Shown in pieces: positions 12,336 through 36,137 of a stretch of DNA of 64,000 nt (position 1 is its first letter; each line of letters opens with the position of its first letter). A program made the translations under genes and the position numbers. Under the pieces are notes generated by a model, which saw nothing but the letters and a program-made list of their open reading frames with translations, ran no database searches and was not told where the DNA came from. Origin of the DNA: Pseudomonas promysalinigenes (GTDB lineage: Bacteria; Pseudomonadota; Gammaproteobacteria; Pseudomonadales; Pseudomonadaceae); assembly GCF_014269025.2 (NCBI RefSeq), contig NZ_CP077094.1, forward strand, positions 1 through 64,000. Direction: 5' to 3'.

Positions 12336-13982
12336 ATGCCATCAGCCGATTCTGTCTTCGACTACGTGGTTGTAGGTGCTGGTCCTGCCGGCTGCCTGCT
12401 GGCCAACCGATTGTCTGCCGACCCTTCCTGCCGCGTGCTGCTGCTCGAAGCGGGTGGGCGCGATAACTATCCATGGATTCACATCCCCGTCGGATACCTC
12501 TACTGCATTGGTAACCCACGCACCGATTGGTGCTTCAAGACCGAAGCACAAGCTGGTCTGGGCGGCCGTGCCCTGGGCTACCCACGGGGCAAAGTGCTCG
12601 GCGGCTGCTCTTCGATCAACGGCATGATCTACATGCGTGGCCAGGCCGCCGACTACGATCATTGGGCCGAGCAAGGCAACGATGGCTGGGCGTGGAACGA
12701 TGTGCTGCCGTTGTTCAAAGCCTTTGAAAACCATCATGCCGGCGCCAGCGAGCACCATGGTGCAGAGGGTGAGTGGCGGGTCGAGCGTCAGCGCTACAGC
12801 TGGCCCATCCTGGACGCGTTTCGCGATGCGGCCGAGCAAAGCGGCATCGGCAAGATCGACGATTTCAACACCGGCGACAACCAAGGCTGTGGATACTTTC
12901 AGGTCAACCAGCGTAGCGGTGTGCGCTGGAACGCCGCCAAAGCGTTTCTGCGGCCCATCAAAGATCGCCCGAACGTTACGGTGCTCACTGGGGTGCAGGT
13001 AGACCAAGTGTTGTTGGGCAATACCCGCGCACGTGCGGTCAAGGCATTCTGGCAAGGCGCCTGGCATGAATTTGCTGCGCGTCGCGAGATCATTCTTTGT
13101 GCAGGTGCTGTGGGCTCACCCGGCATTCTTCAGCGCTCCGGTATCGGCCCGCGTAAATTGCTCGAGCAGTTGGGCATCGCTGTGCGCCACGATATGCCTG
13201 GCGTAGGGGGCAATCTGCAGGATCATCTGCAACTGCGCTTGATCTACCAGATCCGCAACACGCGTACCCTGAATCAGATGGCCAATAGCCTGTGGGGCAA
13301 GTTGGGCATGGGTCTACGCTACCTCTATGACCGCAGTGGCCCGCTGGCCATGGCACCGAGCCAGTTGGGCGCATTCGTGCGCTCCAGCCAGGAGCAGGCC
13401 ACGCCGAACCTGCAGTATCACGTGCAGCCGCTGTCGCTGGAGCGTTTCGGCGAGCCGCTGCATGCGTTCCCGGCGTTTACCGCCTCGGTGTGCAACCTGC
13501 GCCCAGTCAGCCGCGGGCGCATCGATATCGGCGGTGCAGATATGAACAGCGCGCCTGTGATCAACCCTAACTACTTGAGTGCGCCCGAGGATCTGCGGGT
13601 TGCTGCCGACGCTATCCGCCTGACTCGGCGCATCGTCCAGGCCCCTGCCCTGGCCATGTTCGACCCCAAGGAATATTTGCCCGGGCCAGACCTGCAAAGC
13701 GATGAAGCGCTGTTCGAAGCGGCTGGCAAAATCGGTACTACCATCTTCCATCCGGTGGGCACCTGCCGAATGGGCAGCGGCGCACTGGATGTTGTGGATA
13801 ACCAACTGCGGGTGCACGGCATTCCGGGGTTGCGTGTAGCCGATGCTTCGATCATGCCGTACATCACGTCGGGCAATACCTGTTCCCCCACCTTGATGAT
13901 CGCTGAAAAGGCGGCACAACTGATCCTTAAAGGAGCGGCCACCCAAACCAACCTGAACCAAGACGCAGTACCGACCCCTTGA
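12336..13982 (+). CDS. GMC-family FAD-dependent alcohol/choline-type dehydrogenase
   Basis: A 548-residue glucose-methanol-choline oxidoreductase. The N-terminal ADP-binding motif is VVGAGPAGCLLANRL, with LLLEAGG after it. GMC signature 1 is GGCSSINGMIYMRG, signature 2 is GAVGSPGILQRSGIG, and the C-terminal region has HPVGTCRMG and a TSGNTCSPTLMIAE tail, which place the catalytic His and the second active-site residue. Such enzymes (AlkJ, BetA, polyethylene glycol dehydrogenases) oxidise alcohols to aldehydes at the membrane. The substrate is unknown; no betaine aldehyde dehydrogenase is adjacent, so true BetA is less likely. An MFS transporter follows 97 bases later and may import the substrate. 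A perfect DnaA box lies inside (13793-13801). Confidence 0.8.
   Translation: MPSADSVFDYVVVGAGPAGCLLANRLSADPSCRVLLLEAGGRDNYPWIHIPVGYLYCIGNPRTDWCFKTEAQAGLGGRALGYPRGKVLGGCSSINGMIYMRGQAADYDHWAEQGNDGWAWNDVLPLFKAFENHHAGASEHHGAEGEWRVERQRYSWPILDAFRDAAEQSGIGKIDDFNTGDNQGCGYFQVNQRSGVRWNAAKAFLRPIKDRPNVTVLTGVQVDQVLLGNTRARAVKAFWQGAWHEFAARREIILCAGAVGSPGILQRSGIGPRKLLEQLGIAVRHDMPGVGGNLQDHLQLRLIYQIRNTRTLNQMANSLWGKLGMGLRYLYDRSGPLAMAPSQLGAFVRSSQEQATPNLQYHVQPLSLERFGEPLHAFPAFTASVCNLRPVSRGRIDIGGADMNSAPVINPNYLSAPEDLRVAADAIRLTRRIVQAPALAMFDPKEYLPGPDLQSDEALFEAAGKIGTTIFHPVGTCRMGSGALDVVDNQLRVHGIPGLRVADASIMPYITSGNTCSPTLMIAEKAAQLILKGAATQTNLNQDAVPTP
13793..13801 (-). other. Perfect DnaA box (in GMC oxidoreductase gene)
   Basis: TTATCCACA on the minus strand. 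Left edge of the dense box belt. Confidence 0.7.
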
Positions 13983-14079
13983 CCCAGGAGGGTGCAACAG
14001 CGGCAGCTCGCGGTCACAAGCTGCCGGCAGTGGAACAACAAGAATAATCACTGTGGCCTGCGGGCCGAGGACAGCAACG

Positions 14080-15699
14080 ATGTCGGATTACATCCAAGAG
14101 CAGGGTACAGCGGCAGCTCCTACCAGCCGCCGGGAAGAACGCAAGATCATATTCGCGTCATCCCTCGGGACGGTTTTCGAGTGGTATGACTTTTTTCTCT
14201 ATGGGGCGTTGGCTGCCGTCATCAGCAAGCAGTTCTTTGCAGGGGTGAACGACACCACGGCCTTCATTTTTGCGCTCATGGCATTCGCCGCCGGGTTTTT
14301 GGTGCGGCCATTTGGTGCGCTGGTGTTTGGCCGGTTGGGCGACATGATCGGGCGCAAGTACACCTTTCTGGTAACCATCGTACTGATGGGGCTGTCCACC
14401 TTCGCCGTTGGCCTGCTGCCCACTTACGCCAGCATCGGCATCGCGGCACCGATCATTCTGGTGTTGTTGCGCATGCTGCAAGGGCTGGCGCTGGGCGGTG
14501 AATACGGTGGTGCTGCCACTTATGTGGCTGAGCATGCGCCACCCGGTAAGCGTGGGTTCCACACAGGCTTCATCCAGTCCACGGCTACGCTGGGTCTGTT
14601 GCTATCACTACTGGTCGTGCTGGGCAGCCGCTATATCAGCGGTGACCAGTTCGAAACTTGGGGCTGGCGCCTGCCGTTCCTGCTATCGATCATCTTGCTG
14701 GCGATTTCCACCTGGATCCGCATGAGCATGCATGAGTCGCCGGCGTTCGTGAAAATGAAGGCCCAGGGCAAGGTCAGCAAGTCGCCGATCCGCGAGTCGT
14801 TCACCTCCTGGCCCAACCTCAAAGTCGTACTCACAGCGTTATTCAGTATCAACGCTGGGCAGGCCGTAACGTTCTATACCGCTCAGTTCTACGTGCTGTT
14901 CTTCATGACCCAGATGCTCAAGATGGACCCGGCTCAGGCCAACACCTTGTTGATCATCAGCGTGGTGATCGGCGCGCCGTTCTTCGTGTTCTTTGGTTGG
15001 CTGTCCGACCGAATCGGGCGCAAACCGATCCTCATGCTCGGCCTGCTGCTGGCCACGGTGCTGTACTTCCCTATGTTCAAGGCGCTGAGCCATTACGCAA
15101 ACCCGCAGATCGATGCGGCCAGCCGCCAGGCACCCATTGTGGTAACGGCTGACCCACAAGGCTGCACCTTCCAATTCGACCCGGTCGGTAAGGCCCGCTT
15201 CGACAGCCCCTGTGACAAGGTCAAGACCTTCCTGGTCAAACAGGGGCTGCCTTACAGCTCGGTAAGCGTAGCTGGCAGCGATGTTGTGGTGAACATCGGC
15301 GACAAGACCATCAATGGCTTCGATGAAACAGCCATGCGCGCCGCGATCGAGCAGGCAGGCTACCCGGCCAAGGCAGACCCAGCACAGGTCAACCAAGTGA
15401 TGGTGGTGGTGCTGATCGTCGCCATGATCCTGATCGCGACCATGACTTATGGGCCTTTGGCGGCGGTGATGGTGGAGTTGTTTCCAACGCGGATCAGATA
15501 CACCTCGATGTCGCTGCCCTACCATATCGGCAACGGTTGGTTCGGTGGCTTCCTGCCCACCGTTTCGTTCGCGTTGGTGGTGTATACCGGGGATATCTTC
15601 TATGGGCTCTGGTACCCGGTGCTGGTGACCGGTATCAGCTTGGTGGTGGGAATATTCTGTCTCAAGGAAACCAAGGACGTGGATATCGACAAGGTTTGA
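14080..15699 (+). CDS. MFS transporter of the metabolite:H+ symporter (MHS) type with an extracytoplasmic insertion
   Basis: A 539-residue inner-membrane transporter. The N-terminus (LGTVFEWYDFFLYG) and the RLGDMIGRKY and SDRIGRKP loops are typical of the MHS family (ProP, ShiA, KgtP, PcaT). Usual length is about 430-450; the extra residues form a soluble segment of about 100 residues (about 345-445) between predicted TM9 and TM10, on the periplasmic side. It contains two cysteines (C362, C378) and an alpha/beta pattern. ATG 14080 is chosen because upstream codons are not protein-like. It probably works with the preceding GMC dehydrogenase; the substrate is unknown. Confidence 0.8.
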   Translation: MSDYIQEQGTAAAPTSRREERKIIFASSLGTVFEWYDFFLYGALAAVISKQFFAGVNDTTAFIFALMAFAAGFLVRPFGALVFGRLGDMIGRKYTFLVTIVLMGLSTFAVGLLPTYASIGIAAPIILVLLRMLQGLALGGEYGGAATYVAEHAPPGKRGFHTGFIQSTATLGLLLSLLVVLGSRYISGDQFETWGWRLPFLLSIILLAISTWIRMSMHESPAFVKMKAQGKVSKSPIRESFTSWPNLKVVLTALFSINAGQAVTFYTAQFYVLFFMTQMLKMDPAQANTLLIISVVIGAPFFVFFGWLSDRIGRKPILMLGLLLATVLYFPMFKALSHYANPQIDAASRQAPIVVTADPQGCTFQFDPVGKARFDSPCDKVKTFLVKQGLPYSSVSVAGSDVVVNIGDKTINGFDETAMRAAIEQAGYPAKADPAQVNQVMVVVLIVAMILIATMTYGPLAAVMVELFPTRIRYTSMSLPYHIGNGWFGGFLPTVSFALVVYTGDIFYGLWYPVLVTGISLVVGIFCLKETKDVDIDKV

Positions 15700-15707
15700 T
15701 GAGGGAT

Positions 15708-15738
15708 AAAAAAACCGGCTTTAAAAGCCGGTTTTTTC
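15708..15738 (+). terminator. Rho-independent terminator after the MFS gene
   Basis: The hairpin aaaccggct-ttaa-agccggttt is followed by a T run, with an A run on the other arm, so it may be bidirectional. It lies about 10 bases after the MFS stop. The rest of the spacer, up to plsC at 15867, is AT-rich and holds one perfect DnaA box at 15853. Confidence 0.9.
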
Positions 15739-15852
15739 ATGCCTTAAAAAACTTATGCACGTTCGAACTGAAATCGTTAGCTCTGGAAATAAATAGTTAA
15801 TTCAATCACTTAGCGTATAAAACAAGCATTTCACGAACAAACTGTACACAAG

Positions 15853-15861
15853 TTATCCACA
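15853..15861 (+). other. Perfect DnaA box (MFS-plsC spacer)
   Basis: TTATCCACA on the plus strand, one of only two intergenic boxes in the belt. Confidence 0.7.
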
Positions 15862-15866
15862 GAAGG

Positions 15867-16637
15867 TCAGGCCATCTGTTGCTGCGGTTTTTCCTCAGCT
15901 GGCGGCAGGGAGCCCATGGCTCGCTGGGTGGCTTCGTTCCAAGCGGCAGCGCGGTCATTGAGCTCAGCGATGGCCCGTGGCCCTGTGCCTTCAGCGTACA
16001 TCGGCTCGCCGATCACCACCTCAATGGTGCCAGAGCGCTTGCCCCAGCCTGTCTTGGGCCAGAACTTCCCAGCGTTGTGGGCAATTGGCAATACGGGTAG
16101 CCCAGCATTCACCGCCAGGGCGGTACCACCCCGGGAAAATTTGCCCACGGTGCCGAATGGCACTCGGGTCCCTTCCGGGAAGATCAGCACCCAGGTTTTC
16201 TGCTTGAGCAACTCGTCACCCTTGCTGGCAACATGGCGCAGGGCTTCTTTGGGGTTATCTCGGTCGATCGCGATGGGCCTTAGCATGGCCATGGCCCAAC
16301 CAAAGAACGGCACATACAGCAGCTCGCGTTTGAGCACTTGGCTCAGCGGCGAAAAATACTGGGAGAGAAAGAAGGTTTCCCAGGTGCTCTGGTGGTTGGA
16401 CAGGATCACGCAGGGCTCATCCGGCACGTTCTCGGCACCGCTGACCTTGTAGTTGATACCGAGGATGGTGCGCGCCAGGAACAGTGCGCAGCGGCACCAG
16501 TACACGTTGATGAACTTGTAGCGCTTGGGGAACGACAGAAACGGCGCGACGAAAAAGCTCAGGGTGCACCACAGCAGCGAACTGGTGCCCAGCAGCAGGT
16601 AAAAAAGAAAGATTCTGATCGCCTGCAGGATCGACAT
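15867..16637 (-). CDS. plsC: 1-acyl-sn-glycerol-3-phosphate acyltransferase
   Basis: Inner-membrane enzyme that acylates lysophosphatidic acid to phosphatidic acid in phospholipid synthesis. In its 256 residues the acyltransferase motifs are clear: NHQSTWE (HX4E/D block, about 82-88), a middle block near RPIAIDRDN, and FPEGTR (about 153-158), plus a hydrophobic N-terminus of about 30 residues. It lies 63 bases after gmhB on the same strand and is probably the last gene of the glyQ-glyS-gmhB-plsC transcript. The C-terminus ends in a Glu/Gln-rich tail. Confidence 0.9.
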   Translation of the reverse strand: MSILQAIRIFLFYLLLGTSSLLWCTLSFFVAPFLSFPKRYKFINVYWCRCALFLARTILGINYKVSGAENVPDEPCVILSNHQSTWETFFLSQYFSPLSQVLKRELLYVPFFGWAMAMLRPIAIDRDNPKEALRHVASKGDELLKQKTWVLIFPEGTRVPFGTVGKFSRGGTALAVNAGLPVLPIAHNAGKFWPKTGWGKRSGTIEVVIGEPMYAEGTGPRAIAELNDRAAAWNEATQRAMGSLPPAEEKPQQQMA

Positions 16638-16700
16638 AGTGGCAAGTACCGTTGCGGGTCATGCCCGCCTGGGAAAATACGCCCAAAGGCGCATCATTGT

Positions 16701-17228
16701 TTAAATAAGTGCTCTGGCGATAGCTGCCAGATCGTCGAAAATCAGTGTGTTTTGCGGGACACCTTTTTCCAGAGTCCGCTCACCCTTGCCGGTTTTGACC
16801 AGCACAGGTTGGGCACCGACAGCGAGGGCAGCCTGAAGGTCACCGCTGCTGTCGCCAACGAACCAGACGCCCTCAAGGTTCACCTGGTAATACTCAGCGA
16901 TCGCCCGCAGCATGCCAGGCTTGGGCTTGCGGCAGTCGCAGCCCTCGTCTGGCCCATGCGGGCAATACACGATATGGCCCACTACACCGCCCTGCTCGGC
17001 CACCAGCTCGCGCAGTCGCGCGTGCATGGCTTCGAGCGTGGTCAGCGGGTAATAACCACGGGCGATGCCAGACTGGTTGGTGGCCACGGCCACCGTCCAG
17101 CCCGCCTTGCTCAACTGCGCGATGGCCTCGACCGAGCCAGGGATCGGAACCCACTCTTCCAGCGTCTTGATGTAGGCGTCGGAGTCGTAGTTGATCACCC
17201 CGTCACGGTCGAGAATCAGCAGTTTCAA
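16701..17228 (-). CDS. gmhB: D-glycero-beta-D-manno-heptose-1,7-bisphosphate 7-phosphatase
   Basis: HAD-family phosphatase that removes the C7 phosphate in ADP-heptose synthesis for LPS inner core. Its 175 residues match the family length. The catalytic aspartates are in LILDRDGVINYDSD (D7, D9). The zinc-binding loop is seen as CPHGPDEGCDCRKPKPGML, and a late FVGDSSGD motif binds metal. It starts 3 bases after the glyS stop, in the same operon. Confidence 0.92.
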   Translation of the reverse strand: MKLLILDRDGVINYDSDAYIKTLEEWVPIPGSVEAIAQLSKAGWTVAVATNQSGIARGYYPLTTLEAMHARLRELVAEQGGVVGHIVYCPHGPDEGCDCRKPKPGMLRAIAEYYQVNLEGVWFVGDSSGDLQAALAVGAQPVLVKTGKGERTLEKGVPQNTLIFDDLAAIARALI

Positions 17229-17231
17229 GGC

Positions 17232-19283: not shown

Positions 19284-20227
19284 TGTGCAGCCTCCAGCTT
19301 CGCCAACACTTCGTCACGCAGTTCAGGGGTAGCCATCGGGAAGCCCAGGCGTGCACGGGCTTGCAGATAGCTTTGCGCCACGTCCCGGGCCAGGGTACGA
19401 ACACGCAGAATGTAACGCTGACGCTCGGTTACCGAGATGGCGCGGCGAGCGTCCAGCAAGTTGAAGGTGTGCGAGGCCTTCAGGACCATTTCATAGGTCG
19501 GCAGCGGCAGGTCCAGCTTGATCAGGCGGTTGGCTTCGCTTTCATAGAAATCGAACAGCTCGAACAGCTTCTCGACGTTGGCGTGCTCGAAGTTGTAGGT
19601 CGACTGCTCCACTTCGTTCTGGTGGAACACGTCGCCATAGGTGACCTTGCCGAACGGGCCATCGGCCCAAACCAGGTCGTAGACCGAATCGACGCCTTGG
19701 ATGTACATGGCCAGGCGCTCGAGGCCGTAGGTGATTTCACCGGTGACCGGGTAGCACTCGATGCCACCGACTTGCTGGAAGTAGGTGAACTGAGTGACTT
19801 CCATGCCGTTCAGCCAGATTTCCCAGCCCAGGCCCCAGGCGCCCAGTGTCGGCGATTCCCAGTTGTCTTCGACGAAGCGAATGTCGTGGACCAGCGGGTC
19901 CAGGCCGATGGCTTTCAGGGAGCCGAGGTACAGCTCCTGGAAGTTGGCAGGGTTGGGCTTGAGTACCACCTGGAACTGGTAATAGTGCTGCAGGCGGTTG
20001 GGGTTTTCGCCATACCGCCCGTCGCCAGGGCGACGGCTTGGCTGCACGTAGGCGGCGTTCCAGGTTTCTGGACCCACGGCGCGCAGGAAGGTAGCGGTGT
20101 GGAAAGTGCCGGCGCCTACTTCCATATCGTAGGGCTGAAGCACCACACAACCTTGCTCGGCCCAGTAGTTTTGCAGGGCGAGGATCAGGTCTTGGAAGGT
20201 ACGCACGGCTGGCGTAGGCTGGCTCAC
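19280..20227 (-). CDS. glyQ: Glycyl-tRNA synthetase alpha subunit
   Basis: Catalytic alpha subunit of the alpha2beta2 glycyl-tRNA synthetase. I start at the GTG at 20227 ([12 protein letters not shown]), 315 residues, because AGGTG lies 6 bases before it; an in-frame GTG at 20236 would add three residues. The sequence has the expected [18 protein letters not shown] opening and the class II core segments ([19 protein letters not shown] motif, [19 protein letters not shown]). First gene of the glyQ-glyS-gmhB-plsC run, divergent from tag. Confidence 0.95.
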
Positions 20228-20310: not shown

Positions 20311-20862
20311 ATGCCACGCTGCTTTTGGTGTACCGACGATCCGTTGTACCAGGCCTACCACGACCAGGAGTGGGGGACGCCCCAGCGTGACCCGGCGTTG
20401 CTGTTCGAGATGCTTTTGCTCGAAGGGTTCCAGGCAGGGCTTTCATGGATCACCGTTCTGCGCAAACGCGAGCGTTATCGCCAGGTGATGTACGGCTTCG
20501 ATCCGGTGAAACTGGCCGCCATGAGCGATGAACGCATCGAGGAGCTGATGCTGGATGCGGGCATCATCCGCAACCGCCTCAAGCTCAAAGCTGCCCGGCG
20601 CAACGCCCAGGCCTGGCTGGCTGTGGATAACCCTGCGCAGTGGCTCTGGTCGTTTGTCGGTGGCGAGCCGAAGATCAACCACTTTCAGGCCCGTAGTGAT
20701 GTGCCGGCCGTTACCGACCAAGCCAAGGCCATGAGCAAGGCGTTGCAGAAAGCTGGCTTCACCTTCGTTGGCCCGACCATCTGCTATGCCTTCATGCAGG
20801 CCACCGGCATGGTCATGGACCACACCACCGATTGCGATCGCTACGCCGCCTTGGTGCGCTGA
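20311..20862 (+). CDS. tag: DNA-3-methyladenine glycosylase I
   Basis: Base-excision repair enzyme that removes 3-methyladenine from alkylated DNA. The 183 residues match the family. Zinc-ligand positions are conserved: C4 and H17 at the N-terminus (MPRCFWC, YHDQEW) and H171 and C175 at the C-terminus (HTTDC), the same spacing as I recall for E. coli Tag (C4, H17, H175, C179). The catalytic Glu lies in the LLLEGFQAGLSW segment. Divergent from glyQ. A perfect DnaA box lies inside the gene at 20632-20640. Confidence 0.94.
   Translation: MPRCFWCTDDPLYQAYHDQEWGTPQRDPALLFEMLLLEGFQAGLSWITVLRKRERYRQVMYGFDPVKLAAMSDERIEELMLDAGIIRNRLKLKAARRNAQAWLAVDNPAQWLWSFVGGEPKINHFQARSDVPAVTDQAKAMSKALQKAGFTFVGPTICYAFMQATGMVMDHTTDCDRYAALVR
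20632..20640 (-). other. Perfect DnaA box (in tag)
   Basis: TTATCCACA on the minus strand, within coding sequence. Confidence 0.7.
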
Positions 20863-21790: not shown

Positions 21791-21794
21791 GCGT

Positions 21795-21874: not shown

Positions 21875-22189
21875 TCAACCAGACGTTTTGTTGAGCTTCT
21901 TCAGGAACACAGCCATCTCTTTCTCGGCCTGCTTATCGCCATGGGCCTGGGCCGCGAGGATGCCGTCCTCCCAGGCTTTGCGCGCAGCAGGCAGGTCCCC
22001 TTGCAACTGGTGGGCTTTGCCTAGCAGCTTCCAAGCAGCCGAGTACTTCGGGTCCTGCGCCACGCAGCATGCCAAGTGCAGCGCCGCCTGGGCGCCATTG
22101 CCCTCATCCAGCCAGGCTTTACCCAGGCCGAATCGCAGCAGCGGGTTATCCACACCCTTGGTCAGCATCTTCTCCAGCGATTCGCGCAT
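21875..22189 (-). CDS. Small tetratricopeptide-repeat protein
   Basis: A 104-residue cytoplasmic protein with no signal peptide. It carries about two TPR-type helical hairpins: LLRFGLGKAWLDEGNGAQAALHL and SAAWKLLGKAHQLQGDLPAARKAW, followed by a Lys-rich tail. TPR proteins mediate protein contacts; no partner is evident. It starts 10 bases after the trkA stop on the same strand, so it is probably the last gene of the fmt-rsmB-trkA transcript. A DnaA box (22146-22154) lies in its 5' part. Confidence 0.75.
   Translation of the reverse strand: MRESLEKMLTKGVDNPLLRFGLGKAWLDEGNGAQAALHLACCVAQDPKYSAAWKLLGKAHQLQGDLPAARKAWEDGILAAQAHGDKQAEKEMAVFLKKLNKTSG
22146..22154 (+). other. Perfect DnaA box (in TPR gene)
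   Basis: TTATCCACA on the plus strand, 108 bases from the next box. Confidence 0.7.
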
Positions 22190-22198: not shown

Positions 22199-23572
22199 CT
22201 AGAAGAAACTCAAGCCAACGTGGAACAGCTTTTCCACATCCCGAATATGCTTTTTATCCACAACGAACAGAATCACATGGTCGCCTGACTCGATAACGGT
22301 ATCGTCGTGGGCGATCAACACGTGCTCGTCGCGGATGATCGCGCCGATGGTGGTGCCCGGTGGCAAGGTAATGTGTTCGATGGCTTTACCAACCACTTTG
22401 CTCGACTTGGCGTCACCATGGGCCACCGCCTCGATAGCCTCGGCCGCACCGCGGCGTAGCGAGTGCACACTGACGATATCGCCGCGCCGCACGTGGGCAA
22501 GCAATGTACCAATGGTGGCCAGCTGCGGGCTGATGGCGATGTCGATCTCACCGCCCTGCACGAGGTCGACATAGGCCGGGTTGTTGATGATGGTCATCAC
22601 CTTGCGTGCGCCCAGGCGCTTGGCCAGCAGCGAGGACATGATGTTGGCCTCGTCGTCGTTGGTCAGGGCCAGAAATATATCGGCGTCGGCGATGTTCTCT
22701 TCGAGCATCAGGTCCTTGTCCGAAGCACTGCCCTGCAACACCACGGTGCTTTCCAAGGTGTCGGAAAGATAACGGCAACGAGCTTGGCTCATTTCGATGA
22801 TCTTCACTTGGTAGCGGCTTTCGATGGCCTCGGCCAAGCGCTCGCCGATTTGCCCTCCGCCGGCGATGACCACGCGTTTGTTGGTTTCATCGAGGCGGCG
22901 CAGTTCGCCCATTACGGCGCGGATGTCCTTCTTTGCGGCGATGAAGAACACTTCGTCATCGGCTTCGATCACCGTATCGCCGCGTGGTGTAATTGGGCGG
23001 TCGCGGCGGAAGATGGCCGCAACGCGCGTATCCACATTGGGCATGTGGGCGCGGATCTGACGCAGTTGCTGGCCCACCAATGGGCCGCCGTAATAGGCCT
23101 TCACTGCCATCAGTTGCGCTTTGCCACCGGCAAAGTCGATCACCTGCAGGGCGCCTGGGTGCTCGATCAGGCGCTTGATATAGTTGGTCACTACCTGCTC
23201 AGGGCTGATCAGCACGTCGACCGGAATATGGTCATTGTCGAACAGCTCCTCACGGGTGAGGTAGGCTGACTCGCGCACTCGGGCGATCTTGGTCGGGGTG
23301 TGGAACAGCGTATAGGCCACCTGGCAGGCGACCATGTTGGTTTCGTCGCTGTTGGTCACCGCAATTAGCATGTCGGCATCGTCGGCACCGGCCTGGCGCA
23401 GCACCGTGGGCAGCGAACCGCGGCCCTGTACGGTACGGATGTCCAGGCGGTCGCCGAGGTCGCGCAGGCGGTCGCCATCGGTATCGACCACGGTGATATC
23501 GTTGGCTTCGCTGGCCAGGTGTTCGGCCAGCGTACCGCCTACCTGCCCTGCACCGAGGATGATGATCTTCAT
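22199..23572 (-). CDS. trkA: Trk potassium-uptake regulatory protein TrkA
   Basis: Peripheral NAD-binding subunit that gates the TrkH/TrkG K+ channel at the inner membrane. The 457 residues show the duplicated architecture: RCK-N 1 ([17 protein letters not shown], with the nucleotide-binding acidic end TVVDTD), RCK-C 1, RCK-N 2 ([17 protein letters not shown], about 233-250) and RCK-C 2. It follows rsmB by 23 bases and precedes the TPR gene by 10, in an operon. A perfect DnaA box lies at its 3' end (22254-22262). Confidence 0.94.
22254..22262 (+). other. Perfect DnaA box (3' end of trkA)
   Basis: TTATCCACA on the plus strand, same orientation as its neighbour in the TPR gene. Confidence 0.7.
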
Positions 23573-26402: not shown

Positions 26403-26608
26403 AAGGTCAGGCAGTCACTGTCTGTCGGTTGAAAACTGAACACACATAATAAAGGCAAACGCTGATTTCAGCACCTGCGAAAGCTCGTCTACGGTCTCTA
26501 TAGGCCTGATAGCCGGCAAATCATGGACAGCTTTTCAAACAGTTACTCACACACTTATCCACAGGTTGTGCCACGTAGATGGCCCTGTATCGATCAAGGA
26601 TGATCAGT
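26403..26608. other. Divergent def/dprA intergenic region
   Basis: About 200 bases without a gene. It is AT-richer than its surroundings, contains one perfect DnaA box (26555-26563), and should carry the def and dprA promoters. No regulatory site could be assigned with confidence. Confidence 0.6.
26555..26563 (+). other. Perfect DnaA box (def/dprA spacer)
   Basis: TTATCCACA on the plus strand in the divergent promoter region, so DnaA could also affect def or dprA transcription. Confidence 0.7.
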
Positions 26609-27706
26609 ATGTTGAACGACCATTCGTCGTCTTGTGCGCCTGCAGAACTGGAAGCCCGACTACGCTTGCATCGCTTGCCTGAGACGGGGTTGCGACGCTT
26701 TCGAACCCTTATCCAGGCCTTTGGCAGCGCATCATCCGCACTCAGTGCGCCGGGCTCTGCCTGGCGCGCGCTGGGTGTTGGTCAAGCCACCATCGATGCG
26801 CGGCGCAGCCCAGAAGTGCGCGATGGCGCGCTGGCTGCCATGGCCTGGCTAGAGCGGCCTGGCCAGCATTTACTGATGTGGGACGGCCCTGGCTACCCTG
26901 CTTTACTGAATGAAATCGACGATGCGCCGCCCTTGTTGTTCGTGGCGGGCGACCCTGCACTGCTCGACCGGCCGCAGGTCGCAATCGTGGGCAGCAGGCG
27001 CGCAACCCCACCGGCACTGGACACCGCCAGGGCGTTCTCGCGCTACCTGGCGCAAGCAGGTTTCACCATTACCAGCGGCCTTGCCCTGGGTATAGATGGT
27101 GCCGCTCATCGGGCGGCACTGGAGGTCGGTGGAGGCACCATTGGTGTGCTAGGCACCGGCTTGCAAAAATTTTATCCACAGCGCCATCGCGACCTTGCGC
27201 GGATGATGATCGATAGCGGCAACACGCTGGTTTCCGAGTACCCACTCGATGCCGGGCCGCTGCCTGGCAACTTCCCGCGGCGCAATAGAATCATCAGTGG
27301 TTTGTCGCTTGGTGTGCTGGTGGTCGAGGCGAGCCTGGCCAGTGGCTCGTTGATTACCGCTCGTCTGGCCGCCGAGCAGGGCCGTGAGGTTTACGCAGTA
27401 CCAGGTTCCATCCACCACCCTGCGGCCAAGGGCTGCCATCAGTTGATTCGCGACGGCGCATTGCTGGTGGAGAGCGTAGACCAGATCCTTGAAAGCCTGC
27501 GCGGCTGGCAGAACCTGCCCCCCGCTGTGGTGCAAAAGCCACTTCACCCGCTGCTTGCCCTGCTCCATGCTGCGCCACAGACTAGCGAGAACCTGGCCCA
27601 CTTCACTGAACAGTCGCTGGCCGAGGTGCTGGCGCAGTTGACCGAGCTGGAACTTGAAGGCCGGGTCAGCAATGTCGGCGGGCGTTGGTTTGCCCGCGCC
27701 GGCTAA
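26609..27706 (+). CDS. dprA: DNA processing protein DprA (Smf)
   Basis: Rossmann-fold protein that binds incoming single-stranded DNA and loads RecA during transformation. I chose ATG 26609 (MLNDHSSSC), which follows AAGGA by 8 bases, giving 365 residues; ATGs at 26579 and 26600 are in frame but lack spacing. The core has [18 protein letters not shown] and [17 protein letters not shown] (nucleotide/DNA-binding loop), then [13 protein letters not shown] winged-helix-like C-terminal domain follows. tsaC is 44 bases downstream. A DnaA box lies inside at 27172. Confidence 0.93.
27172..27180 (+). other. Perfect DnaA box (in dprA)
   Basis: TTATCCACA on the plus strand, preceded by an A/T-rich run (aaaaattt). 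Confidence 0.7.
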
Positions 27707-27750: not shown

Positions 27751-28308
27751 ATGGTGAGCAGTTTTCGTGTGCAACAAGCCGCACGTGAGATCAGGGCGGG
27801 CGCAGTCATCGCCTACCCTACGGAAGCGGTCTGGGGCCTGGGCTGCGACCCGTGGAACGAGGACGCGGTATATCGTCTGCTGGCGCTTAAATCCCGACCT
27901 GTGGATAAAGGCCTGATCCTGATCGCCGACAACATCCGCCAGTTCGACTTTCTGTTCGAGGACTTCCCCGAGGACTGGATCGACCGCATGAGCAGCACCT
28001 GGCCCGGCCCGAACACCTGGCTGGTACCGCACCAGGATCTCTTGCCTGAGTGGGTGACCGGGCAGCACGATACTGTGGCGCTGCGGGTGAGCGATCATCC
28101 TCAGGTGCGCGAGCTGTGTGCGCTGGTGGGGCCGCTGATTTCCACTTCATGCAACCCGGGCGGGCGCCCGGCGGCGAAGAGCCGGTTGCGGGTGGAGCAG
28201 TACTTCCATGGCCAGCTCGACCTGGTACTGGGTGGGGCGCTGGGTGGGCGCAAGAATCCCAGTGTGATTCGAGATTTGGTGACGGGTGAGGTCGTTCGGC
28301 CGGGCTGA
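27751..28308 (+). CDS. tsaC: Threonylcarbamoyl-AMP synthase (YrdC/TsaC)
   Basis: Makes threonylcarbamoyl-AMP from Thr, bicarbonate and ATP for the t6A37 modification of ANN-decoding tRNAs. I start at ATG 27751 (MVSSFRVQQ), giving 185 residues, the usual length. Family features are the N-terminal [15 protein letters not shown] and the [13 protein letters not shown] segment for nucleotide binding, with [12 protein letters not shown] near the end. It probably shares a transcript with dprA. A DnaA box lies inside (27900-27908). Confidence 0.94.
27900..27908 (-). other. Perfect DnaA box (in tsaC)
   Basis: TTATCCACA on the minus strand, within coding sequence. Confidence 0.7.
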
Positions 28309-28360
28309 GACTGTGGCGGTTAGACTGCACGCGGCCGCAGAGGCTGAAAAGTAAGATCAG

Positions 28361-28406: not shown

Positions 28407-28423
28407 ACCTCAGTCTCACCCTC

Positions 28424-29401: not shown

Positions 29402-29454
29402 CTCGCACTCCTGTTGTCGGGAACGGGGAAAGGCCTTCTATCGGACGCCTTTGC

Positions 29455-30448
<994 letters not shown>

Positions 30449-30473
30449 GCCTGTAGATAAACAAGGAATCGAA

Positions 30474-31298
30474 ATGGACCAGTATGTTGTCTTCGGTAAC
30501 CCCATCGGTCATAGCAAGTCGCCGTTGATTCACCGCCTGTTCGCCGAACAGACCGGGCAGGACCTGGAATACGCCACGCTGCTGGCGCCACTGGACGAAT
30601 TCAGCGATTGCGCACGTGGCTTCTTCAAGCAAGGCAGTGGCGCCAATGTGACCGTGCCGTTCAAGGAAGAAGCCTACCGCCTGTGCGACAGCCTCACCCC
30701 TCGTGCCCAGCGCGCAGGTGCCGTGAACACACTGAGCAAGCTGCCTGATGGCACGCTGCAAGGCGACAATACCGACGGTGCTGGGCTGGTGCGCGATCTG
30801 ACGGTGAACGCAGGGGTGGAGTTGGCCGGCAAGCGTATCCTCATTCTGGGTGCTGGCGGCGCCGTACGCGGCGTACTCGAACCTATCCTGGCCCATCAGC
30901 CGCAGTCGTTGGTGATTGCCAACCGTACGGTCGAGAAGGCCGAGCAGCTGGCGCGGGAGTTCGATGAACTGGGCCCGGTGGCGGCCAGCGGATTTGCCTG
31001 GTTGCAGGAGCCGGTGGATGTGATCATCAATGCCACCTCGGCTAGCCTGGCTGGTGAATTGCCGCCGATCGCCGACAGCCTCGTCGAGGCGGGCCGCACG
31101 GTGTGCTACGACATGATGTATGGCAAAGAGCCGACCCCCTTCTGCCAATGGGCCGCGACGTTGGGGGCCGCCAAGGTTCTGGATGGTTTGGGCATGCTGG
31201 CCGAGCAGGCGGCTGAAGCGTTCTTTATCTGGCGTGGCGTGCGACCGGATACGGCGCCGGTCCTTGCAGAGCTCCGCCGGCAACTCGCTCGCGGCTGA
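30474..31298 (+). CDS. aroE: Shikimate dehydrogenase
   Basis: NADPH-dependent enzyme of the shikimate pathway that reduces 3-dehydroshikimate. The ATG 30474 ([20 protein letters not shown]) gives 274 residues. Shikimate-binding residues lie in NPIGHSKSP and [11 protein letters not shown] (catalytic Lys). The NADP-binding loop is [10 protein letters not shown] with [10 protein letters not shown] after it. The C-terminus has [13 protein letters not shown]. It follows hemF by 25 bases. Confidence 0.95.
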
Positions 31299-31369
31299 CA
31301 GTTCCGGGCTTTACATAATCCATGAGGGGCAGATTCCCCGACGCTGTGTCCAGCGCGGTAATTAGCACC

Positions 31370-31412
31370 GTTTGCGCCGGTGTTCGCGGGTAAACCCGCC
31401 CCCACGAAGGGA
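31370..31412. repeat. Single REP-like palindrome
   Basis: The bases ttcgcgggtaaacccgccccca (about 31383-31404) match the P. putida REP core closely. It lies between the convergent aroE and the binding-protein gene. The rest of the 127-base gap shows nothing else. Confidence 0.75.
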
Positions 31413-31425
31413 TACCTGGGGTGGG

Positions 31426-32349
31426 TCACAGCTTGGCTTTTACAGCCTCCAGGGCATTGCCATCGGCTTTGGTGGTCACCCCCGATAACCACCCTTGCAA
31501 CCGTTCGGGGTGCTGCTTCACCCAAGCCTTGGCCGCTTCATCGAAGCTGATTTTCTTGTCCACCACCTCGGCCATGATGGCGTTCTCCATGTCCAGGGTG
31601 AAGCTCAGATTCGCCAGCACTTTGGCCGCGTTCGGGCAGGCCTGTGAATAACCCTTGCGGGTCAGGGTAAACACCTCGCCCTTGCTGCCGAACCACTTCT
31701 CGCCGCCCGTCAGGTAATGCATCTTGAGCTTTACGTTCATCGGATGCGGGGTCCAGCCAAGGAAGGCGATGAACTTTTGTTTTTTCACAGCCCGGTCTAC
31801 TTGGGCCAGCATTGCCTGTTCGCTGGACTCCACCAGCTTCCATTGGCCCAGATCGAATTCGTTCTTGTCGATGATTTCCTTGAGTGACAGGTTCGCCGGC
31901 GCGCCAGAGCCGATGCCATAGAGCTTCTTGTCGAACTGGTCGGCGTGCTTTTGCAGATCGGCGAAATCTTTCACCCCGGCATTCCACACGTAGTCCGGCA
32001 CTGCCAGAGTGAACTCTGTGCCCTCCAGGTTGCGCGACAGTCGCTGCACATCACCATTGGCGATGAACTTGTCGTGAAAGCCCTGCTGTGCCGGCATCCA
32101 GTTGCCCAGGAAAGCGTCGACACGGCCATCCTTGAGGCCGCCATAGATGATCGGGACGGCCAGGCTGTCGATCTTCACCTGGTAACCCAGGCCTTCCAAC
32201 AGCAGGCGAGCCACGGCGTTGGTCGAAGCGATGTCGCTCCAGCCGGGGTCGGCCAGTTTGACCGCGCTGCATTGCGCGTCGGGGTCAGCGGCTTGGGCCG
32301 CTGTGGTGGTCAGGGCTAGTGCGAATACGGCGGTAGCGATCTTGTGCAT
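31426..32349 (-). CDS. Choline/betaine-type ABC transporter substrate-binding protein
   Basis: Periplasmic binding protein (OpuAC/ProX fold, ChoX-like) of 307 residues with a signal peptide cleaved near TAAQA (about residue 20). W37, W84 and W199 have exactly the spacing I recall for the Trp43/Trp90/Trp205 box of Sinorhizobium ChoX, which cages a quaternary ammonium group. F113 lies where the fourth aromatic, Tyr119, would fall. It starts 14 bases after the betC stop on the same strand, so it probably captures choline, choline-O-sulfate or betaine. No permease or ATPase gene is adjacent, so it must share a transporter encoded elsewhere. Confidence 0.8.
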   Translation of the reverse strand: MHKIATAVFALALTTTAAQAADPDAQCSAVKLADPGWSDIASTNAVARLLLEGLGYQVKIDSLAVPIIYGGLKDGRVDAFLGNWMPAQQGFHDKFIANGDVQRLSRNLEGTEFTLAVPDYVWNAGVKDFADLQKHADQFDKKLYGIGSGAPANLSLKEIIDKNEFDLGQWKLVESSEQAMLAQVDRAVKKQKFIAFLGWTPHPMNVKLKMHYLTGGEKWFGSKGEVFTLTRKGYSQACPNAAKVLANLSFTLDMENAIMAEVVDKKISFDEAAKAWVKQHPERLQGWLSGVTTKADGNALEAVKAKL

Positions 32350-32363
32350 GGCGGCCTCTGTGT

Positions 32364-33881
32364 TCAATCCATGGGGGCGGGCTGTGGATAACGTGCCTTG
32401 CGCTCGAGGTCATCGAGATCGATATGGTTGCGCATGTACTGTTGGCTGGCGTCCACCCAGGGTTGATGGTCCCAACTGTTCAGCTTGCCGATGGCCAGCG
32501 CCTCGGCCACCAGGCGGCGGCGGCGTTGGCTGGCCAGCACTTGTTGGCGCAGGGTAGCGATATCCCAGCGTTGGCGTGCTTCATCGACGAATGCCTGCAG
32601 CAGTGCCTGGTGGTCAGGGCTACCGGTGAGGTTCTCCCGTTCGTGCGGGTCGCGGCTCAGGTCATAGAGTAGGCAGGGGTCGTCTTCGCTGTACACGAAT
32701 TTATGGGGCCCCCGGCGGATCATCATCAGCGGGCCGACGGTACCTTCGGCCATGTATTCACCGATCACCTCGTCGTGGCCGCCGTGCCCTTGAAGATGAC
32801 CAAGCAATGAGCGGCCGTCCAAGTGCAGTTGGTTATCCACAGCGCCACCCGCCAGTTCGACCAAGGTTGGCAGCAGGTCGCAGGTCGAAACCGAGGCGCT
32901 GACGCGGCGGGCGGCAAAGCGTTTCGGCGCGTGTACCAGTAGCGGAACGCGGGCCGACATCTCGAACCAGTGCATCTTGTACCAGAGCCCACGCTCGCCA
33001 AGCATATCGCCATGGTCACCCGAGAAGACGATCAGGGTGTCCTCGGCAAGGTCGCACTCTTCCAGCGTTTGCAGCAGTTGGCCGATATTGTCATCGATGT
33101 AGCTGCAAGCGCCGAAGTAGGCACGCCGAGCATCGCGAATCTTTTCCACAGGCAGTGGTTTGTTCCAGAGGTCATAGACCTTGAGCAGGCGCTGAGAATG
33201 AGGGTCAAGTGCCTCCTGATTGAACTCCGCGCGGGGCATGGGGATATCCACATCTGCGTAGCGATCCCAATAGCGCTTGGGGATGGTGTATGGATCATGT
33301 GGATGGGTCATCGATACCGTCAGGCAGAACGGACGGCCATCATTCTCGCGCACATGGTCATACAGATACTGGCGGGCCTTGAACAGCACTTCCTCGTCGA
33401 AATCCAGCTGATTGGTGCGCACGCACGGCCCGGCCTGGAGCACCGAAGACATGTTGTGGTACCAAGTTGGGCGCACATCAGGCTCATCCCAGTTCACCGC
33501 CCAGCCATAGTCGGCTGGATAGATATCGCTGGTCAGACGTTCCTCGTAACCATGCAACTGGTCCGGCCCGCAGAAGTGCATCTTGCCCGACAGGGCTGTG
33601 CGATAGCCTAAGCGGCGCAGGTAGTGCGCATAGGTCGGCACGTCGGCGGGGAAGTCGGCCGCGTTGTCGTAGGCACCAATGCGGCTGGGCAGCTGGCCGC
33701 TGACCAGCGTGAAGCGCGATGGCGCGCACAACGGGCTGTTGCAATACGCCGAATCGAACACCACCGCATCTTGGGCCAGGCGGGTCAGGTGCGGCATCTG
33801 GATGGCTGAAGGGCCATAGATCGGCAGTAACGGGGCGGCCATCTGGTCGGCCATGATGAACAGGATATTCGGGCGTGTCAT
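32364..33881 (-). CDS. betC: Choline sulfatase
   Basis: Type I sulfatase that hydrolyses choline-O-sulfate to choline and sulfate. The ATG 33881 (MTRPNILFIMADQM), 6 bases after GGAG, gives 505 residues, near the usual length. The sulfatase signature LCAPSRFTLVSG carries C52, the residue converted to formylglycine. Metal-binding Asp lies in the N-terminal IMADQM, and FSGDHGDMLGERGLW is the second metal site. The C-terminal LERKARYPQPAPMD resembles other choline sulfatases. It is divergent from a LysR gene and precedes a choline-type binding protein. Two perfect DnaA boxes lie inside. Confidence 0.9.
   Translation of the reverse strand: MTRPNILFIMADQMAAPLLPIYGPSAIQMPHLTRLAQDAVVFDSAYCNSPLCAPSRFTLVSGQLPSRIGAYDNAADFPADVPTYAHYLRRLGYRTALSGKMHFCGPDQLHGYEERLTSDIYPADYGWAVNWDEPDVRPTWYHNMSSVLQAGPCVRTNQLDFDEEVLFKARQYLYDHVRENDGRPFCLTVSMTHPHDPYTIPKRYWDRYADVDIPMPRAEFNQEALDPHSQRLLKVYDLWNKPLPVEKIRDARRAYFGACSYIDDNIGQLLQTLEECDLAEDTLIVFSGDHGDMLGERGLWYKMHWFEMSARVPLLVHAPKRFAARRVSASVSTCDLLPTLVELAGGAVDNQLHLDGRSLLGHLQGHGGHDEVIGEYMAEGTVGPLMMIRRGPHKFVYSEDDPCLLYDLSRDPHERENLTGSPDHQALLQAFVDEARQRWDIATLRQQVLASQRRRRLVAEALAIGKLNSWDHQPWVDASQQYMRNHIDLDDLERKARYPQPAPMD
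32383..32391 (-). other. Perfect DnaA box (3' end of betC)
   Basis: TTATCCACA on the minus strand, within coding sequence. Confidence 0.7.
32833..32841 (+). other. Perfect DnaA box (in betC)
   Basis: TTATCCACA on the plus strand, 450 bases from the other box in the same gene. Confidence 0.7.
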
Positions 33882-33989
33882 GAAGGCTCCCATCGTAGAG
33901 AATTATGCGAAACGCTTGCCTATCACGATGCGACTGTGAGTAATTTGGGTAAAGCCCATGGCGGGCAATGACTGGGATTAGCCACACTT

Positions 33990-34889
33990 ATGTTTGAGCG
34001 CCTTGCTGAACTGTCGCTGGATTCCCTGCGGGTATTTGAGGCTGCCGCACGCTTGCGCAGTTTCACCGCCGCCGCCCTGGCCCTAGGCACTACCCAACCG
34101 GCTGTGAGCCAGCAGATAAAGCGGCTGGAAGAACAACTGGGCACGCGCCTGTTCGATCGCATTTACCGGGGTATCGAGCTGACCGAAGCCGGTCAGATGC
34201 TGTTCGAGCAGGTCCACCAAGGCTTACAGGCCATGGAGGATGGCATCGCCCAGGCCAGCGGTCGCGGGCAGCGCGAGGTGCTTCAGGTAGCCACTGACTT
34301 CGCTTTTGCGGCTTTCTGGCTGATGCCCCGGCTGCAGCGCTTTCACGAGGCTTATCCACAGGTGGACGTGAGCTTGGTGACCGGTGAGCGCAGCCAGGGG
34401 ATGCTGCGCCCGGATATCGATGTGGCGATACTGTTCGGCGATGGGCGCTTTCACCAAGGTGAGAGCCGCTGGCTGTTCGACGAAGAGGTATTCCCGGTTT
34501 GCAGCCCTCGGCTGATTCATGGCAAACCCTTGTCAGCCGCGGCTTTGCAACGGCTGCCGCTGCTGCATTTGAAAGGTGAACAGGCCAGCCGCTGGTTCGA
34601 CTGGGCCGGCGTCTTTCGTGGGCTGGGCGTCGAGGCGGCACCACCGCCCGGCCAATTGCGTTTCGATAACTACACGCTGCTGATCCAGGCGGCGATTGCG
34701 GGCCAAGGAGTAGCCATCGGTTGGCGGCACTTGGTCGATGGCTTGGTGGATCAGGGTTTGCTATGCCGGCCTATGGAGGGCAGCCTGAAGTCGCGGCGGG
34801 GCTATCATGTGGTATTGCCGCCGCGTAAACGGCGCGGGGTATTGATCGAGCGTTTCGTCGACTGGCTGGAGCATGAGCGCACTGGCTGA
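33990..34889 (+). CDS. LysR-family regulator, probable activator of betC
   Basis: A 299-residue LysR regulator. The N-terminal helix-turn-helix is seen in SLRVFEAAARLRSFTAAALALGTTQPAVSQQIKRLE (first 60 residues), followed by the effector domain. It is transcribed divergently from betC with 108 bases between, the typical layout for a LysR protein controlling its neighbour; the choline-sulfate utilisation regulators of other proteobacteria have this arrangement. A DnaA box lies inside at 34352. The effector is not deducible. Confidence 0.8.
   Translation: MFERLAELSLDSLRVFEAAARLRSFTAAALALGTTQPAVSQQIKRLEEQLGTRLFDRIYRGIELTEAGQMLFEQVHQGLQAMEDGIAQASGRGQREVLQVATDFAFAAFWLMPRLQRFHEAYPQVDVSLVTGERSQGMLRPDIDVAILFGDGRFHQGESRWLFDEEVFPVCSPRLIHGKPLSAAALQRLPLLHLKGEQASRWFDWAGVFRGLGVEAAPPPGQLRFDNYTLLIQAAIAGQGVAIGWRHLVDGLVDQGLLCRPMEGSLKSRRGYHVVLPPRKRRGVLIERFVDWLEHERTG
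34352..34360 (+). other. Perfect DnaA box (in betC-linked LysR gene)
   Basis: TTATCCACA on the plus strand, within coding sequence. Confidence 0.7.
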
Positions 34890-34912
34890 TTGCAGGGTTT
34901 TCAGGAGTCAAC

Positions 34913-35245
34913 GTGCAAAGAATCAAGGGCTATCACGCCCATATCTACTACGATGCGTCCACCTTCGAGCAGGCACGTGAGCTGTGCGAAGAGGCAGCGC
35001 GGCTGTTTCCCGTGAGCATGGGGCGCATGCATCAGAAACCGGTCGGGCCGCACCCGGACTGGAGCTGCCAGCTGGCTTTCGAGCCGGAATTCGTGGGCGT
35101 CGTGTTGCCCTGGCTGGCGCTGTATCGCAAGGGGCTTGTGGTATTTCTGCATCCGCTGACTGGCGATGAGCTGGCCGATCATCGCGATCATGCAATTTGG
35201 ATGGGGGCCGTGCGGCCTTTGAATCTCTCGATATTCGGGGGTTAG
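34913..35245 (+). CDS. DOPA 4,5-dioxygenase family protein
   Basis: A 110-residue cytoplasmic protein of the aromatic-ring-opening dioxygenase family (PF08883-like). The N-terminus GYHAHIYYD with its paired His, and the HQKPVGPHPDWSCQLAF segment with further His, are typical. Members cleave catechol-type rings such as L-DOPA in fungi; most bacterial ones lack a proven substrate. The start is GTG at 34913, 9 bases after GGAG. It follows the LysR gene by 23 bases on the same strand. Confidence 0.75.
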   Translation: MQRIKGYHAHIYYDASTFEQARELCEEAARLFPVSMGRMHQKPVGPHPDWSCQLAFEPEFVGVVLPWLALYRKGLVVFLHPLTGDELADHRDHAIWMGAVRPLNLSIFGG

Positions 35246-35279
35246 CTTGTGCAGAGTTGTTGGCGAGTTAACCTGCGTA

Positions 35280-35325
35280 ACCTCGCTGGCTGCTTCGCAG
35301 GTGAACCCGTGAAGCAGCCAGCGCG
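35280..35325. terminator. Perfect 12-base inverted repeat between convergent genes
   Basis: GCTGGCTGCTTC (35285-35296) and GAAGCAGCCAGC (35311-35322) enclose a REP-like loop (gcaggtgaacccgt). It lies between the DOPA-dioxygenase-like gene and trpA, which converge. No T tract follows, so it may act as a transcript stabiliser or REP variant rather than a true terminator. Confidence 0.55.
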
Positions 35326-35327
35326 AT

Positions 35328-36137
35328 TTAGCGGCGTGCGCCGCGCACGCCTTCGGCCAGTGCCGAGCAAAGGCTCAGTACATCACTCACTGCCTGATCG
35401 GCGTCTTTGGTCTGGGCAATCTTGTCGACCAGCGCCGAACCTACCACCACACCATCGGCCAGACGTGCGATTGCAGCAGCCTGCTCTGGCGTACGGATCC
35501 CGAAACCGACACTGATCGGCAGGTCGGTATGCCGACGCAGGCGGGCGATGGCCTCGGTCACGTGCTCAGTGGTGGCCGAGCCTGCACCCGTTACACCGGC
35601 CACCGAGACGTAGTAGACGAACCCGGAGCTGCGCTCCAGTACCCGCGGCAGACGCGCGTCATCGGTGGTCGGGGTGGTCAGGCGGATGAAATCGATGCCG
35701 GCAGCCTGGGCCGGCGTGGCCAATTCGGCGTCGTGCTCAGGTGGCAGGTCGACGATGATCAAGCCATCGACACCCGCTTCTCTGGCTTGGGCGACGAAGT
35801 TATCCACACCGAAGCGGTGAATGGGGTTGTAGTAACCCATCAGCACGATAGGTGTGGTGTGGTTATCCACACGGAATTCGCGAACCATCTGCAGGGTTTT
35901 GGCCAGGGTTTGGCCAGCTTCCAGAGCACGCAGGGTGGCAAGCTGGATGGCAACGCCGTCGGCCATGGGGTCGGTGAACGGCATGCCCAGTTCGATGACG
36001 TCGGCGCCGGCTGCCGGCAGGCCTTTGAGGATCTGCAGCGATGCCGCGTAGCCAGGGTCGCCAGCCGTGACGAAGGTGACCAGCGCGGAGCGGCCTTCGG
36101 CCTTCAGTTCGGCGAAGCGTTGTTCAAGACGGCTCAT
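35328..36137 (-). CDS. trpA: Tryptophan synthase alpha subunit
   Basis: Cleaves indole-3-glycerol phosphate to indole and glyceraldehyde-3-phosphate. The 269 residues match the family. Catalytic acids are in [15 protein letters not shown] (Glu) and [14 protein letters not shown] (Asp). The phosphate-binding loop is [12 protein letters not shown]. It overlaps trpB by 4 bases. Two perfect DnaA boxes lie 63 bases apart inside (35800, 35863). Confidence 0.96.
35800..35808 (+). other. Perfect DnaA box (in trpA, first)
   Basis: TTATCCACA on the plus strand, 63 bases (six helical turns) from a second same-orientation box. Confidence 0.7.
35863..35871 (+). other. Perfect DnaA box (in trpA, second)
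   Basis: TTATCCACA on the plus strand. Right edge of the belt; no perfect box was found after this point. Confidence 0.7.

Follow-up and report, generated by a model that had tools for sequence, protein, structure and literature searches.

Why should the DNA beside a replication origin carry so many copies of one short word, most of them inside ordinary genes? The window that we analysed comprises bases 1-64000 of a single-contig Pseudomonas genome of 5,046,521 bp, and its first base is that of the GTG of dnaA. A perfect DnaA box is defined here, by its sequence alone, as an exact match to TTATCCACA on either strand. The preliminary description of this DNA counted 14 such sites in the window, one in dnaA (1260) and 13 in a belt running from 13793 to 35871, with none past 36 kb, and our recount agrees at every coordinate (Table 1). 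It estimated that chance would give about 0.2 sites; 100 dinucleotide shuffles gave a mean of 0.20 and a largest count of 2, against the 14 observed.

The surroundings of the boxes are as first described. Our ORF-based gene calls also place 11 of the 13 belt sites within genes, 15853 and 26555 being the two outside, and the spacings given for the paired sites are correct, with 108 bp for 22146/22254 and 63 bp for 35800/35863. All 14 sites match the consensus TTWTNCACA, and any 1 kb of the window holds two perfect boxes at most. The genes that host the belt boxes are ordinary ones, encoding a GMC oxidoreductase, a methyladenine glycosylase, a TPR-like ORF product, TrkA, DprA, Sua5/YrdC, a choline sulfatase, a LysR regulator and TrpA. 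The TrkA protein is 95-97% identical to those of the closest named loci, which belong to P. putida, P. vlassakiae, P. soli and another Pseudomonas. The window contains no match to an Rfam RNA element at the gathering threshold.

Distribution of the boxes around the origin

The chromosome as a whole carries TTATCCACA 88 times, 44 times on each strand, and the reversed-letter control 13 times. The 50 kb on either side of dnaA contain 32 of these sites: 14 downstream (28 per 100 kb) and 18 upstream (36 per 100 kb). Five of the upstream sites form a cluster at -339 to -76 from dnaA, which we presume to be oriC. The density is 0-4 sites per 100 kb between 50 and 200 kb from dnaA and 2.5-4.5 sites per 100 kb, frequently as small clusters, between 200 and 800 kb; the interval of 0.8-1.5 Mb has 5 sites downstream and 0 upstream, and past 1.5 Mb the 3 sites found in 2.05 Mb are close to the control background. 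An even density over the chromosome, which the preliminary description had itself set against its proposal, is ruled out by these counts, and the clustering of the 88 sites is centred on the origin (Rayleigh R 0.79). The origin-adjacent belt as first described is thus real and incomplete: it is the downstream arm of a two-armed belt centred on oriC, which has a comparable upstream arm, and it is accompanied by a weaker outer tier of sparser sites reaching about 0.8 Mb.

The boxes display no strand bias (right arm 25/22, left arm 16/20), which rejects a strand-oriented motif such as Chi; a genome-wide uptake sequence is rejected by the 0 copies found in 400 kb near the terminus. The flanks of 36 boxes have a mild preference for G, present in 21/36 at -1 and in 22/36 at +1. 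Solitary boxes prevail in the belt. A weaker neighbour lies within 15 bp of 10 of the 31 non-oriC sites found within 200 kb, against 19% of random positions, that is, about 6 expected, and the idea that the belt boxes are cooperative multi-box elements is unsupported by this difference.

Table 1. Perfect DnaA boxes of the window, with their conservation in aligned relatives; local 9-mers serve as the comparison.
Feature	Position	Strand	Conservation
Box inside dnaA	1260..1268	-	exact in 6/7 same-genus relatives
Box in GMC oxidoreductase gene	13793..13801	-	exact in 5/8 aligned named loci; local 9-mers 15%
Intergenic box, flanking genes convergent, 3' of acyltransferase gene	15853..15861	+	exact in 52/53 aligned named loci; 0/533 local 9-mers equal it
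Box in methyladenine glycosylase gene	20622..20630	-	exact in just 5/70 aligned loci; local 9-mers 57%
Box in 104-aa TPR-like ORF adjoining trkA	22146..22154	+	exact in 45/74; local 9-mers 3%
Box at trkA 3' end	22254..22262	+	exact in 41/80; local 9-mers 8%
Box between divergent deformylase and dprA genes	26555..26563	+	exact in 41/45; 0/664 local 9-mers equal it
Box inside dprA	27172..27180	+	exact in 52/75; 0.26% of local 9-mers as conserved
Box in Sua5/YrdC gene	27900..27908	-	exact in 11/75 named loci; local 9-mers 20%; exact in G003 and G018, not in G015, G017 and G012
Box in choline sulfatase gene	32383..32391	-	exact in G003; TTTTCCACA in G017; 1/1 named loci
Box in choline sulfatase gene	32833..32841	+	not kept in G003 or G017; 1/1 named loci
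Box in LysR-family gene	34352..34360	+	exact in G003, not in G017; 0/2 named loci
Box in trpA	35800..35808	+	not kept in G003, G015, G017; 0 named loci aligned
Box in trpA, 63 bp from the preceding box	35863..35871	+	not kept in G003, G015, G017; 0 named loci aligned

Enrichment and conservation of the boxes

To evaluate the enrichment, we set 400 kb surrounding oriC against 400 kb close to the terminus, two samples of practically equal GC content (0.603 and 0.601). TTATCCACA is the 9-mer most enriched at the origin, with 36 copies versus 0, and TATCCACA is the most enriched 8-mer, with 56 versus 5. Other 9-mers are origin-enriched as well, for example AGCTTCTCG (38 versus 2). Most one-mismatch variants of TTATCCACA rise little near the origin, and its letter permutations average 0.94 copies in the origin sample versus 0.98 in the terminus sample. 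A count of 36 was reached by 1 of 2000 letter permutations, and that one must be the box itself because identical permutations stayed in the set. The equal GC and the letter permutations reject an artefact of composition or of permuted motifs.

Codon usage, which the preliminary description had also raised as a possible source of the belt, is ruled out by codon-preserving shuffles: the belt genes hold 11 boxes, against a shuffle mean of 0.61 and a maximum of 4 in 2000 shuffles. The called genes of the upstream 200 kb hold 15 (mean 1.22, maximum 5 in 300 shuffles), and those of the terminus sample hold 0 against a mean of 0.93. The origin-proximal enrichment goes beyond uniform and permuted nulls and is independent of codon usage and of composition.

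The relatives tell where the word is present and where it is absent. All 24 same-genus genomes have boxes above the control, with a total of 2698 versus 367 and an excess of 8 to 149, and two genomes from other families of the order are box-rich (G030, 147 versus 34; G031, 136 versus 35), so that the genome-wide excess extends past the genus. The boxes cluster at dnaA in G003, G012 and G020, for which the site lists are complete (Rayleigh R 0.76, 0.58 and 0.67), and the matches listed for G015 (100 of 133 sites) include a belt that reaches 32.7 kb downstream. Among 16,270 9-mers of the same GC counted in 80 named Pseudomonadaceae loci around trkA, TTATCCACA takes first place with 428 copies, against a mean of 3.3 and a maximum of 71 for 300 permutations. 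These loci form two groups, 59 with 1-14 boxes and 21 with none, and presence of the belt is therefore specific to certain lineages and not essential to the family. Among the box-free loci are 8/8 Stutzerimonas, the two Halopseudomonas, P. oleovorans and a locus that bears the label P. viridiflava (L095). A Stutzerimonas chromosome titled complete has the syntenic belt stretch at a distance of about 8-30 kb from the box cluster on the dnaA side, and this stretch is free of boxes; the word is therefore not forced by the orthologous genes.

Conservation in place was scored as an exact box in the aligned loci, taken from the 80 named loci around trkA, and was compared with local 9-mers (Table 1). 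It is partial. A lack of conservation, which the preliminary description would have held against its proposal, is found in most loci for 20622 and 27900 and in all three aligned relatives for the pair 35800/35863, whereas five of the seven sites alignable in 45-80 named relatives are exact in more than half of them (41-52 loci). Only 15853, the best-conserved site of the window, 26555 and 27172 stand out from the local 9-mers below 1%. The fixation of these three exceeds what a model based purely on the number of sites would need, hinting at local roles for them.

Taking both arms and oriC together, the boxes kept among those alignable are 16/27 in G003 (5.4 expected from local 9-mers), 14/24 in G015 (4.3 expected) and 4/20 in G012 (2.3 expected); in the upstream arm alone, G003 keeps 3/8 against 1.8 expected. 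A stretch of 120 kb contains 32 boxes here, 30 in G003 and 29 in G015, and the positions partly turn over. Such a steady number with shifting positions would suit a function set by number and location, in which few sites are fixed.

A candidate sink for DnaA

The model we propose, and hold to be probable, is that the belt of perfect, mostly solitary boxes acts as a DnaA sink timed by its position, which would limit immediate re-initiation. The forks leaving oriC would copy both arms early, and this early copying would add about 27 non-oriC perfect sites per origin just after the firing of oriC. The new belt boxes would bind free DnaA and lower its level, and the lowered level would in turn help to block immediate re-initiation. 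Here we infer the binding of DnaA, the drop in its free form and the effect on the timing of initiation from established sites with an established origin-centred distribution. The titration or initiation control put forward in the preliminary description is well supported as a hypothesis on sequence grounds, because the density and codon tests, and in part the conservation test, came out for it.

A search that detected SeqA in E. coli gave no SeqA for any of 19 genomes from this order, and sequestration of the E. coli type is therefore unlikely. G029, which has no box excess (15 versus 24 for the control), also lacks SeqA, so that a link between SeqA and the belt is without contrast. Several observations count against the sink. 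The sites 15853, 26555 and 27172 are more fixed than a sink would need; the conservation of the belt arms is modest; 21/80 named loci have no box; the belt of G012 is nearly all upstream, with 17 sites (oriC included) versus 2 downstream; and G014, with 32 sites against a control of 24, has 0 between 0.6 and 134 kb downstream.

Could the boxes instead regulate the origin-proximal genes through a DnaA-dependent control of transcription? The two best-conserved sites of the window, 15853 and 26555, lie outside genes, and the second precedes the called start of dprA by 16 bp (a weaker box, TTACTCACA, sits 3 bp upstream of 26555). However, 11 of the 13 belt boxes are within called coding sequences, in either orientation, 15853 is between convergent genes, and the host genes are functionally unrelated, all of which makes this explanation unlikely. 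We also give little credence to an architectural role, in which belt-bound DnaA, or some other protein that recognises this word, would organise or tether the origin region. Boxes clustered on both sides of oriC and scarce toward the terminus would agree with such a role, but the word is the exact DnaA consensus, present in five copies in the presumed oriC also, and its flanks add little past the mild G on each side.

The comparison with E. coli datA made in the preliminary description stands for the general role and fails for compactness and for the two arms. The E. coli locus is compact, with five boxes and an IHF site (PMC4585315). By analogy with this non-oriC DnaA-binding locus that restrains initiation, the Pseudomonas belt is proposed to have a similar role; a compact datA within the belt is rejected by the maximum of two perfect boxes per 1 kb, most of the boxes being solitary (weaker boxes were sought within 15 bp of perfect ones). 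That the belt is a datA-like site of DnaA-ATP hydrolysis (DDAH) instead of a simple titration device is accordingly quite improbable in spite of the origin-proximal position of the perfect boxes. Hardly tenable is the notion that a neutral or mutational bias, or codon usage, makes the word near the origin: other 9-mers are indeed enriched there, but the codon shuffles, the letter permutations, the equal GC and the box-free Stutzerimonas stretch speak against it, and, already disfavoured, it would require a mutation process specific to one 9-mer.

The proposed DnaA sink has to be placed among the systems already described. In E. coli and Salmonella, DnaA boxes accumulate around oriC, and evidence of titration is also reported (Olivi et al. 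2025, PMC12371093). The peak of box density in E. coli exceeds uniform and permuted-motif nulls, and titration soon after initiation is proposed; the analysis uses 10-centisome windows and an average of 902 boxes per genome, most of them degenerate, with a further version for the consensus alone, and Pseudomonas is unmentioned in the main text (PMC12371093). The likeness is in the density peak around oriC beyond nulls, and the difference is one of numbers: within 50 kb of oriC there are 32 perfect boxes here versus 4 in E. coli MG1655, and 45 TTWTNCACA matches versus 17. The Pseudomonas belt is a stronger and cleaner case of a known origin-proximal box enrichment. In B. subtilis, the joint removal of six DnaA-box clusters outside oriC leads to early initiation (Okumura et al. 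2012, cited in PMC5295017), although another part of PMC5295017 denies the non-oriC clusters a significant role. In both organisms the boxes lie outside oriC, as six discrete clusters in B. subtilis and as a belt of mostly solitary boxes in Pseudomonas.

Literature searches, judged by titles and abstract starts, gave no title that concerned a belt of DnaA boxes near the origin, or DARS, in Pseudomonas. For decades it has been debated whether titration of DnaA by the chromosome times initiation. Tests of titration are difficult in E. coli because several of its controls overlap and because just those 4 perfect boxes are near oriC. A Pseudomonas in which no SeqA is detected and some 27 perfect boxes besides those of oriC lie within 50 kb would make the titration model directly testable. 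As called genes hold 27 of the 36 boxes found within 200 kb, many could be removed by synonymous changes, and the belt-less relatives provide natural controls.

DARS-like elements distant from the belt

A second arrangement of boxes is found outside the window. On one strand, the E. coli bioD-uvrB region carries a box, followed after 5 bp by an inverted box and after a further 3 bp by a second inverted one, and such a triple is present in the rppH-mutH region too; from their map positions, we take these regions to be DARS1 and DARS2, respectively. In this genome, G000:1281440-1281474 reads CTGTTCACA, 3 bp, TTATCCACA, 5 bp, TGTGGATAA, which is the DARS layout with two perfect boxes, and is flanked by genes for an FKBP-type isomerase and a DUF1232 protein. 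The pair TTATCCACA-N5-TGTGGATAA is present in 116/274 Gammaproteobacteria genomes, and its control in 0. Fourteen pairs were inspected (12 fetched loci from the Gammaproteobacteria search, the copy of this genome and one from Stutzerimonas) for a third box-like 9-mer, that is, one with at least 7/9 agreement with TTWTNCACA, on either side. It occurs at a gap of exactly 3 bp in 14/14 pairs, the other gaps from 0 to 8 giving 0 or 1.

A variant composite, TTATCCACA-N7-YMACAG-NNNWTGT, is present in 37/40 same-genus genomes (control 0/40). Among 33 copies from 11 genomes, 29 have a third inverted box TGTKNRYAA, with gaps of 3 and 5 bp; the TGT of this box was in the search pattern and its remaining letters were not. 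The 33 copies are homologues at a few loci and therefore not independent events. For the Fis site, which DARS2 has, a strict consensus begins exactly at -65 in 17/33 of these homologous copies and falls within -80..-1 in 19/33 of them, against a shuffle mean of 1.93 and a maximum of 7 in 500 shuffles. The IHF consensus, a feature of DARS2, was found in 1/33 copies, and a variable inverted repeat sought in the composite spacer is inconsistent among copies.

The likeness to E. coli DARS1 and DARS2, which resides in the 9-5-9-3-9 spacing of three boxes, concerns the distal boxes and not the belt. Unlike the E. coli elements, the Pseudomonas composite has a perfect outer box, other gene neighbours and the near-absence of the IHF consensus just mentioned. 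Kasho et al. 2014 (PMC4245941) report conservation of the DARS2 core among relatives of E. coli, and seven E. coli-proximal species are compared in a later paper (PMC8682772). DARS loci promote the release of ADP from DnaA; the Pseudomonas elements may be candidate counterparts for the reactivation of DnaA outside enterobacteria, and as putative DARS-like elements they deserve a study of their own.

Could the belt and the outer elements be parts of one system? We advance this joint reading tentatively, as a possibility on which we would not yet rely. In Pseudomonas of the putida, fluorescens and syringae types, initiation would be controlled by the geography of the chromosome: the two-sided belt of solitary boxes would be an immediate sink in place of SeqA sequestration, and a DARS-like family of three-box elements at about 0.3, 0.6-0.7 and 1.3 Mb, many of them accompanied by a Fis-consensus site at a constant distance, would reactivate DnaA later. 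The DARS core would be far wider in Gammaproteobacteria than the papers cited here describe, extending well past the relatives of E. coli. The composites of this genome are found near +329, +635 and -669 kb, either between ORFs or at the 3' edge of a gene.

Candidate DARS-like elements

The pattern of the variant three-box composite, whose arrangement resembles that of DARS, was detected in 37 of 40 same-genus genomes against 0 of 40 for the control pattern, and in many of the composites a Fis-consensus site lies 65 bp from the perfect box. In the chromosomal element with DARS-core geometry, the third box-like sequence lies 3 bp from the two-box pair, and the same pair recurs in other genomes. 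The same-genus genome G015 carries the composite in four tandem copies spanning about 500 bp (L157:3232-3721).

Candidate elements and recurring two-box pairs
Feature	Genome or locus	Position
Two perfect opposed DnaA boxes plus third box-like sequence, putative DARS core	whole chromosome, G000 (L144:3441-3475)	1281440-1281474
Same two-box pair	relative G003	2582661
Same two-box pair	relative G015	1455594
Same two-box pair	relative G020	3004359
Same two-box pair	Stutzerimonas G039	3018130 and 3680832
Putative variant three-box composite	L141	3353-3381
Putative variant three-box composite	L143	3866-3894
Two putative variant three-box composites	L145	2849-2877 and 3024-3052

The belt among relatives

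In the upstream arm of G000 (L010), a box pair stands at -7347 and -7173 from dnaA, 174 bp apart; its spacing is identical in G003 and the pair is also conserved in G015. The belt of the relative G012 (C1:126951-186950; L153-L155) is one-sided, with 17 boxes upstream (oriC included) versus 2 downstream within 50 kb of dnaA. A locus titled P. viridiflava isolate p13.H9 (L095) holds 0 boxes across 21 kb, and four other loci titled P. viridiflava hold 9, 4, 5 and 5; the former may be a mislabelled record or a case of belt loss.

Other families of the order

Counts of TTATCCACA, taken as whole-genome totals, are high in two genomes from other families: 147 versus 34 for the control in G030, and 136 versus 35 in G031.
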